Origin: Bacteroidota bacterium
GTDB taxonomy: Bacteria; Bacteroidota; Rhodothermia; Balneolales; HLUCCA01
DNA: 64,000 bases
Direction: 5' to 3'
NCBI GenBank assembly: GCA_020832235.1
Contig: JAFIEZ010000015.1
Span: forward strand, 124,001 to 188,000
Below, piece by piece: positions 2,294-59,884 of this stretch; position 1 is the first letter of the stretch; each line of letters starts with the position of its first letter. A model generated the notes under the pieces. The model had not been told where the DNA came from. It did not search any database and saw only the letters and a program-made list of their open reading frames with translations. The translations under genes and the position numbers were made by a program.

Positions 2294-3415
2294 TTGTCGT
2301 TAAGAATTGTTCATATTATAGACAGCGGTGGATTTTATGGCGCTGAAGCCATGTTATTGACGCTGTGTGAGGCGCAGCTAAGACAAGGTCTTAATGTTGA
2401 GGTCATCAGTATTGGGAGGCCAGGTAATTATGAAAAAGCCATAGAGACAAGATTACTCGAGCGTAATATACCGTGCAAAATATGGCGAATGCCACCATGG
2501 CCCGACATACGGGTATCAATGAGTATTTACCGATGGTGTGCCAGCACTCATACCCATATTATTCATTCACACGGGTATAAGGGGAATATTTTGATGGGGT
2601 TATTACCCAGGCGATTTCGTCGCATACCTGTGGTATCAACTATGCACGGCTATACTATTAAGCGTGGATTCAGCTTACTCAACGTGAAATATTGGGTCGA
2701 TAAAAAAATATTGCGACGGTTAGACGCCTTAGTGATGGTCAGTAGCAGTATGAAACAACAGATCAGCGCAGACCGTTGGAATAACCGCGTACATGTTATT
2801 CCCAACGGTATTTCCAGGTTAGCCCCCCTTGATGATACGCACAACTATCCAGAGGTATTTAGCCTATCGGGGCCGAAGATTGTTTCTATGGGAAGGTTAT
2901 CTAAAGAGAAAAACTTTGGATTACTTATCAGTGCTATGGTGGGGGTGCTCAAAAAGATACACGATGCAAAGCTAATCATTTTCGGAGAAGGTAAGGAACG
3001 TGTACAATTGGAAGCACAGATTTCAGATTTGGGCTTAAACGATTATGTTTTTCTACCCGGATATATAGATCAACCAGCAATTATTTTCAAAAAAACGGAT
3101 GTATTTATAAACTGCTCTACAACAGAAGGGATGCCCGTAACCCTGTTGGAGGCGATGCGCGAGGGCTGCTTAATTGCGGCTACTGATATTCCGGCAAACA
3201 GAGTATTACTTGAGAACTTGACCCCTCCCCCTCCATTAACTCCCCTGTTGCCCGATGCTTTGGCAGACGCAATAGCCGGATTGCTGCTGCTGAATGACGA
3301 TGAGAAAAGAAACAGAAAACAAAATGCCATAGAATATTTCAGATCCAACTTTACCGATGATATTATGGCAGAGAGGTATTTTACACTTTATGAGCAGCTA
3401 TTTGCATCAACATAA
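2294..3415 (+). CDS. glycosyltransferase family 4 protein
   Basis: A 373-residue GT-B fold glycosyltransferase. The N-terminal half has the GT4-like start IVHIIDSGGFYGAEAMLL (nucleotide-sugar enzymes such as WcaL/PimB). The C-terminal half carries MGRLSKEKNF (about residue 200) and the donor-binding acidic motif STTEGMPVTLLEAMREG (near 275-291). The only plausible start giving full length is TTG at 2294: an ATG at 2280 runs into a stop after seven codons. It probably adds a sugar to a surface polysaccharide repeat unit. The next glycosyltransferase begins 9 bp after its stop, so they form an operon. Confidence 0.83.
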   Translation: MSLRIVHIIDSGGFYGAEAMLLTLCEAQLRQGLNVEVISIGRPGNYEKAIETRLLERNIPCKIWRMPPWPDIRVSMSIYRWCASTHTHIIHSHGYKGNILMGLLPRRFRRIPVVSTMHGYTIKRGFSLLNVKYWVDKKILRRLDALVMVSSSMKQQISADRWNNRVHVIPNGISRLAPLDDTHNYPEVFSLSGPKIVSMGRLSKEKNFGLLISAMVGVLKKIHDAKLIIFGEGKERVQLEAQISDLGLNDYVFLPGYIDQPAIIFKKTDVFINCSTTEGMPVTLLEAMREGCLIAATDIPANRVLLENLTPPPPLTPLLPDALADAIAGLLLLNDDEKRNRKQNAIEYFRSNFTDDIMAERYFTLYEQLFAST

Positions 3416-9485: not shown

Positions 9486-9570
9486 TAAGACGTGTTGACA
9501 TCCGTAATCGAGGTTTTTCCCGTATGAGCTTAGGAGATTTTGCCATTATTCTAATGTGCAAGAACAGTAT

Positions 9571-9757
9571 CCAGCCACTGACGTAATCCTACCGTCGGCA
9601 ACTGATGAGTACTACAATGTTCCATCTTTTATGGCCCACGGTCAATTTCCAGCTACTGGCAAAATCCTACCGTCAGCAACTGATGAGCACCACAGTGATT
9701 CCATGTTTTAAAGTTCGCGCACAATTTCCAGCCACTGGTGTAATCCTACCGCCTGGA
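9571..9757. repeat. three tandem copies (78/79 bp) of the 3' end of the DUF4143 ATPase gene
   Basis: The string CCAGCCACTG...AATCCTACCG recurs at 9571, 9649 and 9728, a spacing of 78 then 79 bp. The copy at 9728 lies inside the ATPase gene and encodes its last residues (GLHQWLEIVREL). The other two lie beyond its stop codon and have drifted. The array is therefore an imperfect tandem duplication of a gene 3' end. Confidence 0.85.
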
Positions 9758-10868
9758 CCTGTTCAGCTACAGGAAACGCCTCGGTTCCCGCATAAACAAT
9801 ATAGTTCTGGGATGTCTTTACATCCTCAATAACACTGGCAAAGCCTCTCGACATCGTCGGTGCATTTGATCGTTTTATCTCACCACAGCAAATGGGCTCA
9901 CCATTTCGAACCAGCAGCATATCAGCCTCCGCACCCTGGTGCGTTCTGTAGAAATACAGAGAGCAACCCTCCGGCAGAACCATAGCCGTTTGTTCAATAA
10001 TAAACCCTTCCCACGATCCACCAACACTTATATGTCCCGTTAGCATTGAATGACTATTCACCCCATTTATAGCGTGCAGCAGTCCTGAATCACGAATGTA
10101 CACCTTAGGCGATTTAACCAGGCGTTTTTTGGCGTTTACATGCCATGGCAGTAATTCCCTGATTAAATAAATATGCTGAAGGTAATACACATATCGTGTA
10201 ATCGTAGCACCACTAACACCCACAGAACGGGCCAGTGTCTCCTTGTTCAGCAGACCACCTTGTTGCTGGGCAAGCATCCCGATAAACATTCTCAATTTCT
10301 CGTAATCGGTATTCAATCCCAACAAAGGCAGGTCACGCGCTGTTACCGTGAAAAGAAAGTCATTTAACCATCGCATGGCGACTTTATCAGAGCCAGCGCT
10401 CAGTGCTTGTGGAAATCCACCTCGAAACCATAAATCGTCTGTTGTGTATCTGTCGTCAAGTTCATCGATGTGCAATCCAAACAGTTCTTCATAGGCAATT
10501 CTCCCGGCGAGTGATTCTGACGAATTTCGGATTAATTCGGGGGAGGCCGATCCTAAAACCAGGAATCGACCATTTCGGCGATTGCTATCGATTACCGAGC
10601 GAAGGACGGGGAATAGCTCCGGCTTATGTTGAATTTCATCGATGATGATGAGCTTCTCTTCGTGCTGTTCAAAGAATAATTCGGGCTCCTGAAGCCTCGC
10701 GAGGTCCCGGGGAGACTCCATATCCAGATAGATGGCTGTATCCGGCCTAATAGAAGCTATTTCCCGTGCTAGCGTAGTTTTCCCGACCTGACGTGCACCC
10801 GTAATGGCTACACATGGATAATATTCCATCAATTCAAGCAGCGTACTTTTTTTTTCGCGATGAAGCAT
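9708..10868 (-). CDS. AAA ATPase with DUF4143 domain
   Basis: A 386-residue P-loop protein of the AAA_14/DUF4143 family. Walker A is GARQVGKTT (residues 24-32). Walker B is LIIIDEIQHKPEL (~73-85), followed by the sensor-like LVLGSASPELI. A winged-helix region (TLARSVGVSGATITRYVYYL) leads into the C-terminal DUF4143 nuclease-like fold, with FYRTHQGAEADMLLV and CCGEIKRS. The cellular role of the family is unsettled. Two 37-bp palindromic repeats lie upstream of the start, and copies of its own 3' end lie downstream. It is monocistronic on the minus strand. Confidence 0.88.
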   Translation of the reverse strand: MLHREKKSTLLELMEYYPCVAITGARQVGKTTLAREIASIRPDTAIYLDMESPRDLARLQEPELFFEQHEEKLIIIDEIQHKPELFPVLRSVIDSNRRNGRFLVLGSASPELIRNSSESLAGRIAYEELFGLHIDELDDRYTTDDLWFRGGFPQALSAGSDKVAMRWLNDFLFTVTARDLPLLGLNTDYEKLRMFIGMLAQQQGGLLNKETLARSVGVSGATITRYVYYLQHIYLIRELLPWHVNAKKRLVKSPKVYIRDSGLLHAINGVNSHSMLTGHISVGGSWEGFIIEQTAMVLPEGCSLYFYRTHQGAEADMLLVRNGEPICCGEIKRSNAPTMSRGFASVIEDVKTSQNYIVYAGTEAFPVAEQVQAVGLHQWLEIVREL

Positions 10869-11006
10869 GGAGGAAGGATGTCTTAGTTATTCACAGGTAT
10901 TGCCTAAAAACGTGCCATAATGACAAATATGACCGATTATAGCGCTCTTTTATCATTCTGGATGTTGCAACATTGATTAAATCATGAATAATGATACACA
11001 ATTTAT

Positions 11007-11096
11007 CCATGAAAATTCAATATATCGTGTAGATATTTCATGGATGAAAAAATAACCAACCATGAAAATTCGACATGACATGTAGATTTTTCATGG
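11007..11096. promoter_or_regulatory. two 37-bp palindromic direct repeats upstream of the DUF4143 ATPase
   Basis: Copies occupy 11007-11043 and 11060-11096, separated by 16 bp. Each begins CCATGAAAATTC and ends TTTCATGG, so each is an imperfect inverted repeat with about 16 of 19 arm positions matching. They lie 139 bp upstream of the minus-strand ATPase start and about 115 bp before the plus-strand GH3 gene, inside the 342-bp divergent spacer 10869-11210. The arrangement fits a dimeric repressor with two sites, but the regulator is unknown. Confidence 0.6.
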
Positions 11097-11210
11097 TTAA
11101 AGCCGTTGTTCAAACCCATTCCTCCATCAAGGTTTTACACTTTATTTATATGGGCTCCGCGATGATATCCGTATCATACACCATTATCATCTGCAATTAC
11201 ATCCCTGTTT

Positions 11211-12611
11211 ATGAAACTCCTGACTGCCGGTCTGCTGACCGCCTGCGTTCTATTCGCCTCCCTGAGTCCACGCACTGTTCACGCCCAATCCCTCGAAGAG
11301 AAAATCGCCCAGATGCTGATGGTTTCTTTCACCAGCTTCGGTGCCCCGAAAGACACCCTCATGGTAGACATCGCCCAGCGCAACCTCGGCGGCGTGCTTT
11401 ATTTTCAGAATCATATCAGTAGTCCGGCCCAGATTCAGGCCCTCAGCGCCGAGCTGCAGGACTTCGCCGGAACCCCGCTGTTCCTCGCCGTTGATCAGGA
11501 AGGCGGACGTGTAGCACGCCTGAATGCCAACAACGGATATACGGCCACGGCCAGCGCTGCATTCACCGGAGACGGCGTTTTGCGGGATGTAAATCGCACC
11601 CGATCTCAGGCCTTCACCATGGCCGGATGGCTCCGCGACGCCGGCATTAACGTGAACCTCGCTCCGGTTGTGGATGTAAACATCGATTCGAATAGTCCGG
11701 CCATCGCCCGCCTCGAACGCGCCTACTCCCGCAACGAGCTCACCGTAGCCGACCACGCCATCGCTTTCATGGAAGCCCATAACGAGCGCGACATCATCAC
11801 CTCCACCAAACACTTTCCGGGACATGGAAGCGCCGTAGCCGACTCCCATTTCGGGTTCACCGACATCACCAACACCTGGCAGGAACGCGAACTCACCCCA
11901 TACGAAGTCATTTTTGAGCAGTTCATGCCCGACATGGTCATGACCGGACACCTCTTCCACCGCGACATCGATCCCGATTATCCCGCCTCCATCTCGCACA
12001 AAGCCGTAACCGAGCTGCTCCGCGATGAAATGGGCTATACCGGCGTGGTCATCAGCGACGAGCTCTTCATGCAGGCCATCACCGACAACTATTCCTTCGA
12101 TGAGGCCCTCGTTCTGGCAGTAAATTCTGGCACCGACATTCTGCTATTTAACCGAAACCTGTGCACCTCGCACTGCGGGTCGGAAGAACCCATCTCGCTG
12201 GTACGATATGCGATTCAGCACATCGCCGCAAAAGTGGATGAAGGCGTGATTCCGGCCTGGCGCATCGACGAGTCGTACGCCCGCATCATGGAACTCAAGA
12301 ATCGTCGCTTAACCCCGACATCACTGGCCGATGCGGGAAGCCTTCCCGTTGCCGTTGAGCTTGCGCAGAACTTCCCGAATCCGTTTAATCCAACCACCAC
12401 CATTCGTTGGGAGATGCCGGATGCCGGCGCGGTACAGCTCGCGGTATACAACATGCTGGGACAGGAAGTAGCCCGCCTGGCCGATGAGCAGCTGAGTGCC
12501 GGAGTGCATCAGCGCGTATTCAACGCCACGGGACTTTCCAGTGGCGTGTATGTTTACCGGCTCACCGCCAATGGTGTAACGCTTAGTCGTACCATGACAT
12601 TGGTGAAATAG
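11211..12611 (+). CDS. secreted GH3 beta-N-acetylhexosaminidase-like enzyme with T9SS sorting domain
   Basis: A 466-residue exported glycoside hydrolase family 3 protein. A signal peptide (to VHAQS, ~26) precedes a NagZ-like barrel. LFLAVDQEGGRVARL lies near 93-107. STKHFPGHGSAVADSHFG near 197-214 is the NagZ loop carrying the catalytic His/Asp pair, and VISDELFM near 279-286 holds the nucleophile Asp. From about residue 380 comes a type A T9SS tail: AQNFPNPFNPTTTIRWEMPD, then YNMLGQEVARL, ending LSRTMTLVK. Unlike cytoplasmic NagZ, this enzyme should be sent to the cell surface, perhaps to degrade external chitin or peptidoglycan fragments. Confidence 0.92.
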   Translation: MKLLTAGLLTACVLFASLSPRTVHAQSLEEKIAQMLMVSFTSFGAPKDTLMVDIAQRNLGGVLYFQNHISSPAQIQALSAELQDFAGTPLFLAVDQEGGRVARLNANNGYTATASAAFTGDGVLRDVNRTRSQAFTMAGWLRDAGINVNLAPVVDVNIDSNSPAIARLERAYSRNELTVADHAIAFMEAHNERDIITSTKHFPGHGSAVADSHFGFTDITNTWQERELTPYEVIFEQFMPDMVMTGHLFHRDIDPDYPASISHKAVTELLRDEMGYTGVVISDELFMQAITDNYSFDEALVLAVNSGTDILLFNRNLCTSHCGSEEPISLVRYAIQHIAAKVDEGVIPAWRIDESYARIMELKNRRLTPTSLADAGSLPVAVELAQNFPNPFNPTTTIRWEMPDAGAVQLAVYNMLGQEVARLADEQLSAGVHQRVFNATGLSSGVYVYRLTANGVTLSRTMTLVK

Positions 12612-12937: not shown

Positions 12938-13168
12938 ATGGCCAACTTATTTAACGAAATTGAATCTTCCGCACTAAAGCTTCCCATAAAGCAACGAGCG
13001 CGTCTAGCTTCCAAATTGATCAGGAGCCTTGAAAAGCACGACGAAAAACAAGTTGAAAAACTATGGCTAGAAGAAATAGACCGTAGAAATGAAAATTTGG
13101 AAAAAGGAAACGCTGAGTTAGTTTCCGAATCCGACGTCATGAAAAACGTTCGATCCATCTTATCTTAA
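12938..13168 (+). CDS. addiction-module antitoxin
   Basis: A 76-residue acidic, helical protein of the addiction module component family: SALKLPIKQRARLASKLIRS, then EKQVEKLWLEEIDRRNE, ending SESDVMKNVRSILS. Such proteins neutralise a RelE/ParE toxin encoded next to them. The stop codon TAA shares its last A with the ATG of the toxin gene, an overlap typical of translationally coupled TA pairs. Confidence 0.87.
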   Translation: MANLFNEIESSALKLPIKQRARLASKLIRSLEKHDEKQVEKLWLEEIDRRNENLEKGNAELVSESDVMKNVRSILS

Positions 13169-13458
13169 TGCAAGTAACCTTTCTACGCGAAGCTGAAATC
13201 GAACTCATCAAATCGGCATCATTCTACGAAGATAAATCTGTTGGCTTAGGGGGCGAATTTATCAATGAAGTAAACTCGACCGTTCAGCTCATCAAGAAGA
13301 TGCCGGAAGCCTCTCCATTGATTAACTCATATGCTCGGAAAGCATTGCTTAGTCGCTTCGAATATGGAATAGTATATCGAGTATTCAACAATCAGATCAT
13401 CATTTTGGCAGTCATGCACTCAAAGAGAGAACCAAATTACTGGATTGGGAGAAAGTAA
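13168..13458 (+). CDS. RelE/ParE family toxin
   Basis: A 96-residue toxin of the RelE/ParE superfamily: MQVTFLREAEIELIKSASFY, a central basic stretch with ARKALLSRFEYGIVYRVFNN, and the C-terminal IIILAVMHSKREPNYWIGRK, which matches the family ending (AVxHxKRxPxYW). It probably acts as a gyrase poison or mRNA interferase; sequence alone does not decide. It appears intact and full length. Confidence 0.87.
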   Translation: MQVTFLREAEIELIKSASFYEDKSVGLGGEFINEVNSTVQLIKKMPEASPLINSYARKALLSRFEYGIVYRVFNNQIIILAVMHSKREPNYWIGRK

Positions 13459-29184: not shown

Positions 29185-30717
29185 TCATTTGCCGGGCTTC
29201 TTGCGGAGGTCGGCCAGCACGTTTCGGAACATGCTTTTAGACATTCCCTCCCCGGAGGCTTTATCGGCGGGGGCTGTATCTCCGGTGGATGCATCGACCG
29301 CAGAACTATCGTTTGTACTATCTGGAATATCATTAGAACGTACTAAAGACTTCTTCTGATCTGGCGCAGGTGATACCTGTGTTTGTCTACTTTCTCGATC
29401 GGGCGCCGCTGCAAAGTTTTGCTCGCGCACACTATACTGGCTAGACAGCGGGATGGATGCTTGTTCCGAAAGGGAAGCTTCGGAACCTGTGCCCGTATCC
29501 GTTATCTTTGGAAGCCCCCTAAAGCGAAGGGTCTCCTTAATCACAGGTTCCTGTTTTTCTTCAGTTGACGGAGCCACACGCTCCAACGGCACAATCCCTA
29601 AAAAGTCATGGAAATTATCGGGACGGACCTCCTCTTGCGCTACCGGTCCGTAGTTTTTCGTGAACGTTTTCGGGAAACGTACCGGTTTTTTGCCCTCCCA
29701 GTTAAATTGCCATGCCGAAATCCCTTCCTCGCGCTTCTCCAGATAGCTGACTTCCTGTCGCTGTGTGCTTCGCCAGTAGTGCACGCCCACACGCTCACGC
29801 TGCACATTCAGTTGCTTGAGTCGCTCGCTCACCAGGAAATTCTCCCATAACGCCGGGGCGTCGGGTCGCACCGTTACCGGCTGAAACGCCCCCAAAATGG
29901 CGTTTCGGATGCCATTATCGTAAAAATAGAGCTTGCGCGAAGCCGTGACTTCATTCTCCAGAAATCCAAAGTAGGAGGGGACACGGAACACCAGAAATGC
30001 CTTCTCAAGCAGTCCGATATACCGAAGGATGGTTTTCGGATCGAGGTCGAGCGCCAGGGAAAGGTCCCGTATGATGAGTTCGTTGCCCAGATTTCGCGCC
30101 AATAGCACGAGCAGGTCATCAAGGACATCCGGCTTGCGAATCTCACCGGAATGCAGCACCTCTTTTTGAATAGTTTCTCGCAGGATTTGCTGCAGATGCA
30201 GGCTGGCGGATGCCGGATCTTCAAGCGCCGAGGGATATCGACCGTACAGTATGCTTTGGTGCAGGTCGGATGGATGCTCGGCCATGGACGGAGGCAGCAC
30301 ATGAAACGTTGCCCTTCGACCTGCGCACGCCTCCTGCAGTCGCACTACGGCATCGTTTCGCGATGAGGACAAAAATAGCAGCTGGAGGTCGGGATGTGCG
30401 GCGAGTATTTCCCGTGTCAACGTGTCGATTTCCGGGAAGCGTTGCGCCTCCAGAAAGCAAAGAACCTTTAACAACGGACGTTGTTCTAGAAGTTTTTTTG
30501 CCGACAACGACCGGGCGCAGGATCGCTGGTCGGGGTCCTCGCCGTTGAGCATCAACACGTTATCGGTAGATAACTCCGCACGTTGCGACACCTCCTGCAG
30601 CAGCGCTTTCAGGAATGCCTGTTTGCCCCCGTCGCGCGGTCCGAGCAGGAAAATGGCTCTACCCGTGAAAAACTGCTCGCGAATCTGCGTGAATTGTTGT
30701 CGTTCTGTTGGTTTCAT
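29185..30717 (-). CDS. AAA/DUF4143-like protein with degenerate Walker motifs
   Basis: A 510-residue protein with the layout of AAA_14/DUF4143 proteins. FTGRAIFLLGPRDGGKQAFL holds the P-loop position, a LKVLCFLEAQRFPEI stretch (~83-97) the Walker B position, and TILRYIGLLEKAFLVFRVPS plus KLYFYDNGIRNAILG the DUF4143 part. Both nucleotide motifs are altered: GGKQ replaces GGK(T/S), and the FLEAQ stretch lacks the usual acidic DE pair. A Ser/Asp/Pro-rich tail of about 130 residues follows. It may bind but not hydrolyse ATP, or may be decaying. It sits in the accessory region. Confidence 0.75.
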   Translation of the reverse strand: MKPTERQQFTQIREQFFTGRAIFLLGPRDGGKQAFLKALLQEVSQRAELSTDNVLMLNGEDPDQRSCARSLSAKKLLEQRPLLKVLCFLEAQRFPEIDTLTREILAAHPDLQLLFLSSSRNDAVVRLQEACAGRRATFHVLPPSMAEHPSDLHQSILYGRYPSALEDPASASLHLQQILRETIQKEVLHSGEIRKPDVLDDLLVLLARNLGNELIIRDLSLALDLDPKTILRYIGLLEKAFLVFRVPSYFGFLENEVTASRKLYFYDNGIRNAILGAFQPVTVRPDAPALWENFLVSERLKQLNVQRERVGVHYWRSTQRQEVSYLEKREEGISAWQFNWEGKKPVRFPKTFTKNYGPVAQEEVRPDNFHDFLGIVPLERVAPSTEEKQEPVIKETLRFRGLPKITDTGTGSEASLSEQASIPLSSQYSVREQNFAAAPDRESRQTQVSPAPDQKKSLVRSNDIPDSTNDSSAVDASTGDTAPADKASGEGMSKSMFRNVLADLRKKPGK

Positions 30718-59598: not shown

Positions 59599-59688
59599 AC
59601 GTATAAAATTTTGACCCTTGTTTTCGACACAATCCACGAAAGTAGCGTTTATCTGTTAACCGTTTAATAAAATGATGTAAATGCAGGC

Positions 59689-59884
59689 ATTCGCAGGACT
59701 ATTCGCTGCTCTATTCGCAGGCATTCACTGGTATATTCGCTGGTATTCGCAGGTTCATTCGCTGGACTATTCGCAGGTTCATTCGCAGGACTATTCGCTG
59801 CTCCATTCGCAGGCATTCACTGGTATATTCGCTGGTATTCGCAGGTCTATTCACTGGTTCATTCGCTGGACTATTGGCAGAAGC
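59689..59884. repeat. higher-order short tandem repeat array (10/12-bp units, 92-bp super-period)
   Basis: About 16 units of ATTCGCAGGxxx, ATTCGCTGGxxx or ATTCACTGGxxx, each 10 or 12 bp, fill 59689-59884. The unit order itself repeats: the series starting at 59689 recurs at 59781, a 92-bp period with few changes. It lies between divergent genes (amidohydrolase leftward, sulfurtransferase rightward). No unrelated spacers are present. A plus-strand frame runs through it but looks like a by-product of the repeats. Confidence 0.85.

Follow-up and report, generated by a model that had tools for sequence, protein, structure and literature searches.

What is the function of two long, closely spaced palindromes in front of an AAA_14-DUF4143 ATPase gene, a gene family of unsettled function, and which protein binds them? 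Here, we address this question for a 64,000-nucleotide stretch of a Bacteroidota genome (GCA_020832235.1, contig JAFIEZ010000015.1, positions 124,001 to 188,000; hereafter, the window) and for related genes in other genomes. The original prediction was that paired 37-bp imperfect palindromes, 16 bp apart and without an adjacent regulator gene, are operators that could be bound by the winged helix of the ATPase itself. We confirm the palindromes, their size and spacing and the lack of an adjacent regulator gene, and our data support this interpretation. We suggest that the palindromes are most likely the control site of the ATPase gene; however, binding by the ATPase is inferred, and we give this reading a probability of roughly 0.62. 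The pair in the window is the local form of a wider rule in which one or several copies, spaced by whole helical turns, sit at the start of most of the related genes examined.

Table 1. Coordinates of the features discussed (window positions unless a locus is named)
Feature	Position	Strand	Description
Palindrome 1	11007..11043	.	37 bp, CCATGAAAATTC...TTTCATGG, 12 of 18 pairs
Palindrome 2	11060..11096	.	37 bp, CCATGAAAATTCG...TTTTTCATGG, 16 of 18 pairs; 53 bp (five helical turns) from palindrome 1, start to start
ATPase gene	9708..10868	-	Intact, 386 aa; AAA_14 + DUF4143; PADLOC PDC-S01
Predicted winged-helix part	10083..10313	-	Codons 186-262; helices 189-201, 209-216, 220-232; strands 236-239, 255-258
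Predicted PD-(D/E)XK-like C-terminal domain	9792..10025	-	Codons 282-359; E314, D316, E330, K332
Promoter-like site	10991..11020	-	Towards the ATPase; TTGAAT, 18, TATCAT; first hexamer inside palindrome 1
GH3 gene	starts at 11211		Por secretion tail
ParE-type toxin reading frame	13168-13458		Behind the GH3 gene; 24 bits, cut-off 23
78-bp tandem repeat	9570-9751		2.3 copies, 79% matches
Second, distant DUF4143 gene	29722-30165 (G000:C18:153722-154165)		
92-bp repeat	59683-59875		1.8 copies, 94% matches; 12-bp ATTCGC-type units
ATPase gene with arrays on both sides (locus L287)	G013:C1:1361708-1363223		ACCGTGAA palindrome array before and behind the gene, with part of the flank repeated
Repeated array (locus L297)	2848-3251		Array plus about 100 bp, three times in a row before the ATPase

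Several lines of evidence bear on whether the palindromes stand out. First, the two copies agree at 31 of 37 bases. Second, palindrome 2 is the only 37-mer in the window with 15 or more pairs, while 20 dinucleotide shuffles of the window have none. However, at 13 or more pairs the window (4) does not exceed the shuffles (mean 2.55, maximum 5), so palindrome 1 alone would not stand out. Third, a loose pattern allowing 3 mismatches finds only these two sites in the window, although 9 of 100 shuffles have 2 or more such matches. Fourth, the exact 8-bp arms at this spacing occur only here in the 3.38-Mb genome, and in a BLAST search of the same genome the other 7 matches have E-values of 1.98 or more.

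The ATPase gene starts 138 bp from palindrome 1, and the GH3 gene starts 114 bp away on the other side. The ATPase matches AAA_14 and DUF4143 with 96 and 128.5 bits (cut-offs 27 and 28.1) as well as seven PADLOC PDC-S01 models (best E 1.3e-88; no curated cut-off is given for this library), while searches of NCBIfam and, by sequence, of the PDB gave no match at E 0.01. An AlphaFold2 model (pLDDT 93.2, pTM 0.90) shows an AAA domain, a helical lid, and three helices and a wing ordered as in winged helices; naming this part a winged helix is an inference. Residues 1-269 align best to the archaeal ATPases PABY2304 (2qen) and SSO1545 (2fna), with Z 17.2 and 16.3 over 244 and 248 residues but only 17-19% identity; these alignments cover mainly residues 1-299 and are uninformative about the C-terminal domain. 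In that domain, E314, D316 and E330 are invariant and K332 nearly so in 34 sequences, and Foldseek gives weak matches to McrC, VRR_NUC, Card1 and Bax1, none of which reaches E 0.001 (best 0.017). Thus, a PD-(D/E)XK-like nuclease is likely but not shown. The 78-bp tandem repeat spans the 3' end of the ATPase gene and the DNA behind it, as if the tail of the gene had been duplicated.

The palindromes go with the ATPase. In a genome of the same genus (G001), the methyltransferase and GH3 genes that flank the unit in the window are 180 bp apart, compared to about 1,733 bp in the window, and neither ATPase nor palindromes lie between them. In a genome of the same order (G028), a related ATPase has a similar palindrome pair although its other neighbours differ. 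Moreover, a paralogue on contig C14 of the window's own genome, 42% identical, has three tandem palindromes of another sequence (TTGAAAATCTAA type), also 53 bp apart. By contrast, the second DUF4143 gene in the window (about 29.7-30.6 kb) has no array or long palindrome in its upstream region.

To ask whether this arrangement is general, we used a profile of the ATPase to locate 182 distinct upstream regions in loci from the own order, the phylum and public genome contigs. The fetched loci are a part of the listed matches, DUF4143 was not tested again on each, five loci contribute two rows, and a few rows may be other ATPases. A direct-repeat score of 13 or more was found in 70 of 182 regions, compared to 0.33% of 910 shuffles and 16 of 279 upstream regions of other genes, of which one is the GH3 gene seeing the same array and two are the 92-bp repeat of the window. 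After dropping 7 regions as low complexity, coding or outside 20-80 bp spacing, 63 arrays were kept. Their spacings are 32-33 bp (34 arrays; two more read as 64 and 66), 53-54 bp (12), 22-23 bp (10), 43 bp (2), and 51, 68 and 76 bp once each. In total, 61 of 63 lie within 2 bp of a multiple of 10.6, where 41% of spacings lie, while 8 of 22 control spacings do. The arrays fall into 22 clusters by motif, and 0 of 5000 uniform draws of spacings were as regular; however, with a free phase the best period was 9.5 rather than 10.6 bp. Fifty of 63 arrays are palindromic at p 0.05 or better, whereas in the 22-23 bp class 5 of 10 are, the rest being plain direct repeats.

Regions without arrays often hold one long palindrome at the start of the gene. 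Over -110..+80, 123 of 182 regions have a palindrome at p 0.02 or better compared to 26 of 278 controls; with a score of 9 or more as well, the numbers are 117 and 20, and at a score of 12 or more 89 and 6. Altogether, 131 of 182 regions have an array or a strong palindrome and 51 have neither. In 115 of the 117 cases a start could be assigned, and the palindrome ends a median 9 nt before the ATG; in the window, the palindromes are farther from the ATG than usual. The thresholds (repeat score 13; palindrome p 0.02 and score 9) were chosen while looking at this first set; we scored with them, unchanged, a held-out set from the phylum, in which 42 of 43 loci, many of them from one genus code, gave a region. 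This set repeated the palindromes (26 of 42, against 20 of 278 controls) but hardly the arrays: Only two had whole-turn spacing, and two other repeat scores had spacings of 95 and 106. Thus, the palindrome is common across the phylum while arrays are concentrated in some lineages, with 40 of 79 in the own order, 18 of 63 elsewhere in the phylum, and 2 of 3 and 3 of 37 among genome contigs of Bacteroidota and of other phyla, respectively. A perfect palindrome of 63 bp lies directly before a DUF4143 ATPase gene (locus L399).

The element of the window, CCNTGNAA...TTNCANGG, keeps its length in several phyla. With a free choice of span from 31 to 45, CNTGNAA elements were found in 17 of 182 regions, 14 of them with span 35 (37 with the outer C and G), and in 0 of 278 controls. 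A looser rule with span 34-36, plasmids included, gives 23 loci, 22 of them at 35; judged by record titles, these include Nitrospirae, Brocadiaceae, Opitutaceae, Gammaproteobacteria, Bacteroidota and alphaproteobacterial plasmids. Eight alphaproteobacterial plasmid copies, picked from the best-ranked of 384 plasmid records, all show a CCTTG...CAAGG palindrome of 37 bp before the gene. Seven of these pass the strict pattern; however, only four reach p 0.05 in the palindrome test, and some are near relatives of each other.

The converse, motif-first search supports the link to the ATPase. CATGAAAAT-N15..19-ATTTTCATG occurs at 9 sites in 8 of 394 Bacteroidota genomes, 8 of the 9 with the same span of 35, while the reversed control pattern occurs at one site. 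Six sites, in 5 genomes of which one was already in the gene-first set, lie at the 5' end of a full DUF4143-type ATPase, a seventh lies beside a DUF4143 remnant, and two lie beside none within 1.5 kb, one of these an orphan beside a reading frame that looks like an aconitase by eye. Two other lineage motifs, tried in genomes chosen with such loci among them, gave 10 sites in 4 of 10 genomes and 2 sites in 2 of 12 genomes, all at DUF4143 loci. In viral contigs, 25 relatives were found, 8 of them with a palindrome at p 0.05, three of which are near-identical. Two patterns gave 9 viral-contig stretches without an ATPase; these look like chance, and the one inspected lies inside a phage-like coding sequence.

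Which protein binds the palindromes? Presence and spacing follow the ATPase tree. On a quick tree of 180 rows, with some long branches, 29 changes are needed compared to 58.3 for shuffled labels, and none of 200 shuffles was as low. The 32-33 bp class needs 13 changes (32.3 shuffled) and the 53 bp class 4 (12.7), whereas the 22-23 bp class is hardly clustered (8 compared to 9.9, 4 of 500 as low); among rows of these three classes only 4 changes are needed. One genome (G013) holds arrays of 22, 32-33 and 54 bp beside different paralogues, so the genome does not set the spacing. Motifs are private to ATPase lineages, and pairs with similar motifs have more similar ATPases (AAA identity 0.58 compared to 0.30; rank correlation over all pairs 0.24-0.27). 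The simplest reading is that each ATPase reads its own site with its predicted winged helix. However, conservation of this part relative to the other domains did not separate motif-sharing from other pairs: Of 1,326 pairs with all domains aligned, those with mean identity 0.40-0.75 gave an excess winged-helix identity of 0.062 for 36 motif-sharing pairs and 0.050 for 243 others. Covariation between half-site base and residue was likewise not resolvable from phylogeny.

Altogether, these findings support a model in which the palindromes are the operator of the ATPase gene and belong to a common cis element of the AAA_14-DUF4143 family, i.e., a long palindrome, single or repeated with whole-turn spacing, at the promoter or start codon. 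We suggest that the ATPase most likely binds this element with its own winged helix, one dimer per palindrome, with neighbouring dimers on the same face of the helix so that binding is cooperative, and thereby shuts off its own promoter. That the ATPase is the binder, repression rather than activation, cooperativity and any role in defence are inferences, made in the absence of binding or expression data. In this scenario, the ATPase would be kept low until something, such as ATP state, invading DNA or loss of the protein after transfer, lifts it off. The promoter-like site that overlaps palindrome 1 rests on a consensus scan only (9 of 12 matches, one of 6 such sites in the stretch where shuffles give 2.3) and is not evidence of function. 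A more far-reaching scenario, which we regard as unlikely though not excluded, is that each lineage of this very large family carries its own DNA address, a diversifying set of mutually distinct winged-helix/operator pairs, with repeats locked to whole helical turns because the ATPase assembles on them as an ordered oligomer. The array would then be the parking and sensing site of a single-gene defence system, in which the protein sits silenced on its own promoter until foreign DNA or a change of ATP state moves it off, raising its level and freeing its nuclease.

PDC-S01 is ranked fourth among prokaryotic defences, with validation pending for most such candidates (PMC12988326). A cis element at most of the genes examined would give the family a first testable molecular activity, sequence-specific DNA binding, a way to find what induces it, and a natural set of ATPase-operator pairs, several per genome, for working out specificity. 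In the literature searched, judged by titles, abstract starts and selected passages and with most subscription papers outside its reach, we found no description of lineage-private, helically phased palindromes in this ATPase family. The only expression hint found is that a Thermus DUF4143 gene (TT_P0211) had 6.6-fold more RNA when a plasmid was present, and only with TtAgo (PMC4406477); this gene shows no array. What the element may work like is known from other systems. The controller (C) proteins of type II restriction-modification systems provide a cooperative, concentration-dependent switch of a nuclease system that moves between hosts (PMC3115060). However, C proteins are probably small separate helix-turn-helix proteins beside restriction and modification genes, whereas here the candidate binder is the 386-aa ATPase itself and the neighbours are a Methyltransf_11-type gene and GH3. 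Iteron-bound Rep initiators and Orc1/Cdc6 with origin repeats would share repeats spaced by whole helical turns beside the gene for a winged-helix binder, and the Cdc6/Orc1 structure 2qby is in the Foldseek list. By contrast, the elements described here are mostly palindromic, in one to about five copies, and a predicted PD-(D/E)XK-like domain is attached; at the window locus, no Rep family is among the Pfam hits of the ATPase and five neighbours, and the contig is 215 kb. The pair in the window also does not fit a CRISPR array, with two copies identical at 31 of 37 bases and a 16-bp gap, although cas genes were not searched for. Moreover, the stretches between repeated arrays in four loci, including L297, look by eye like tandem duplications or interspersed repeats rather than captured spacers.

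Among the alternatives, the one that survives best, although it is doubtful, is that the palindromes are sites on which the ATPase-nuclease works rather than an operator, i.e., an assembly, cleavage or recombination site by which the gene moves or is maintained, as with initiator proteins on iterons. Gene and array are present or absent as a unit between close genomes, the array stands on both sides of one gene in G013, units are sometimes duplicated in tandem, and the 22-23 bp arrays may resemble iterons. In addition, the plasmid copies examined sit near rep, par, recombinase, transposase, toxin-antitoxin or conjugation genes. However, among the 18 array-bearing genes searched in 20 wide loci, only that in L287 had a copy behind the gene; copies otherwise lie before the gene. 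At the empty site in G001, the flanks have diverged too far to fix the ends of the insertion, so a target duplication is neither seen nor excluded.

Less likely still, the palindromes act as RNA, as hairpins in the leader of the ATPase mRNA that hide the ribosome-binding site or are bound by the protein. The proximity to the ATG, which 24 of 115 palindromes overlap, is compatible with such translational autoregulation, and a palindrome of this length would be expected to fold as RNA. However, whole-turn spacing of copies has no reason in RNA, the palindromes in the window lie 138 bp upstream of the ATG, no Rfam family reaches its threshold in the window, and fixed outer half-sites with a free centre look like a dimer on DNA. 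A host regulator encoded elsewhere is improbable. Operators of similar size probably exist for many regulators, and none is adjacent here; however, several different private motifs occur in one genome, exact patterns occur nowhere else in the genomes tested, and a shared regulator would not give spacing that follows the ATPase tree. Finally, that the palindromes regulate the divergent GH3 gene, to which they lie close, is very unlikely because the GH3 orthologue in G001 has no palindromes in its upstream region, whose homology to the window begins near 11156, after them, and because in G028 a similar pair stands before the ATPase with other neighbours. Behind the GH3 gene in the window lies the ParE-type toxin reading frame, and a small reading frame before it may be its antitoxin.
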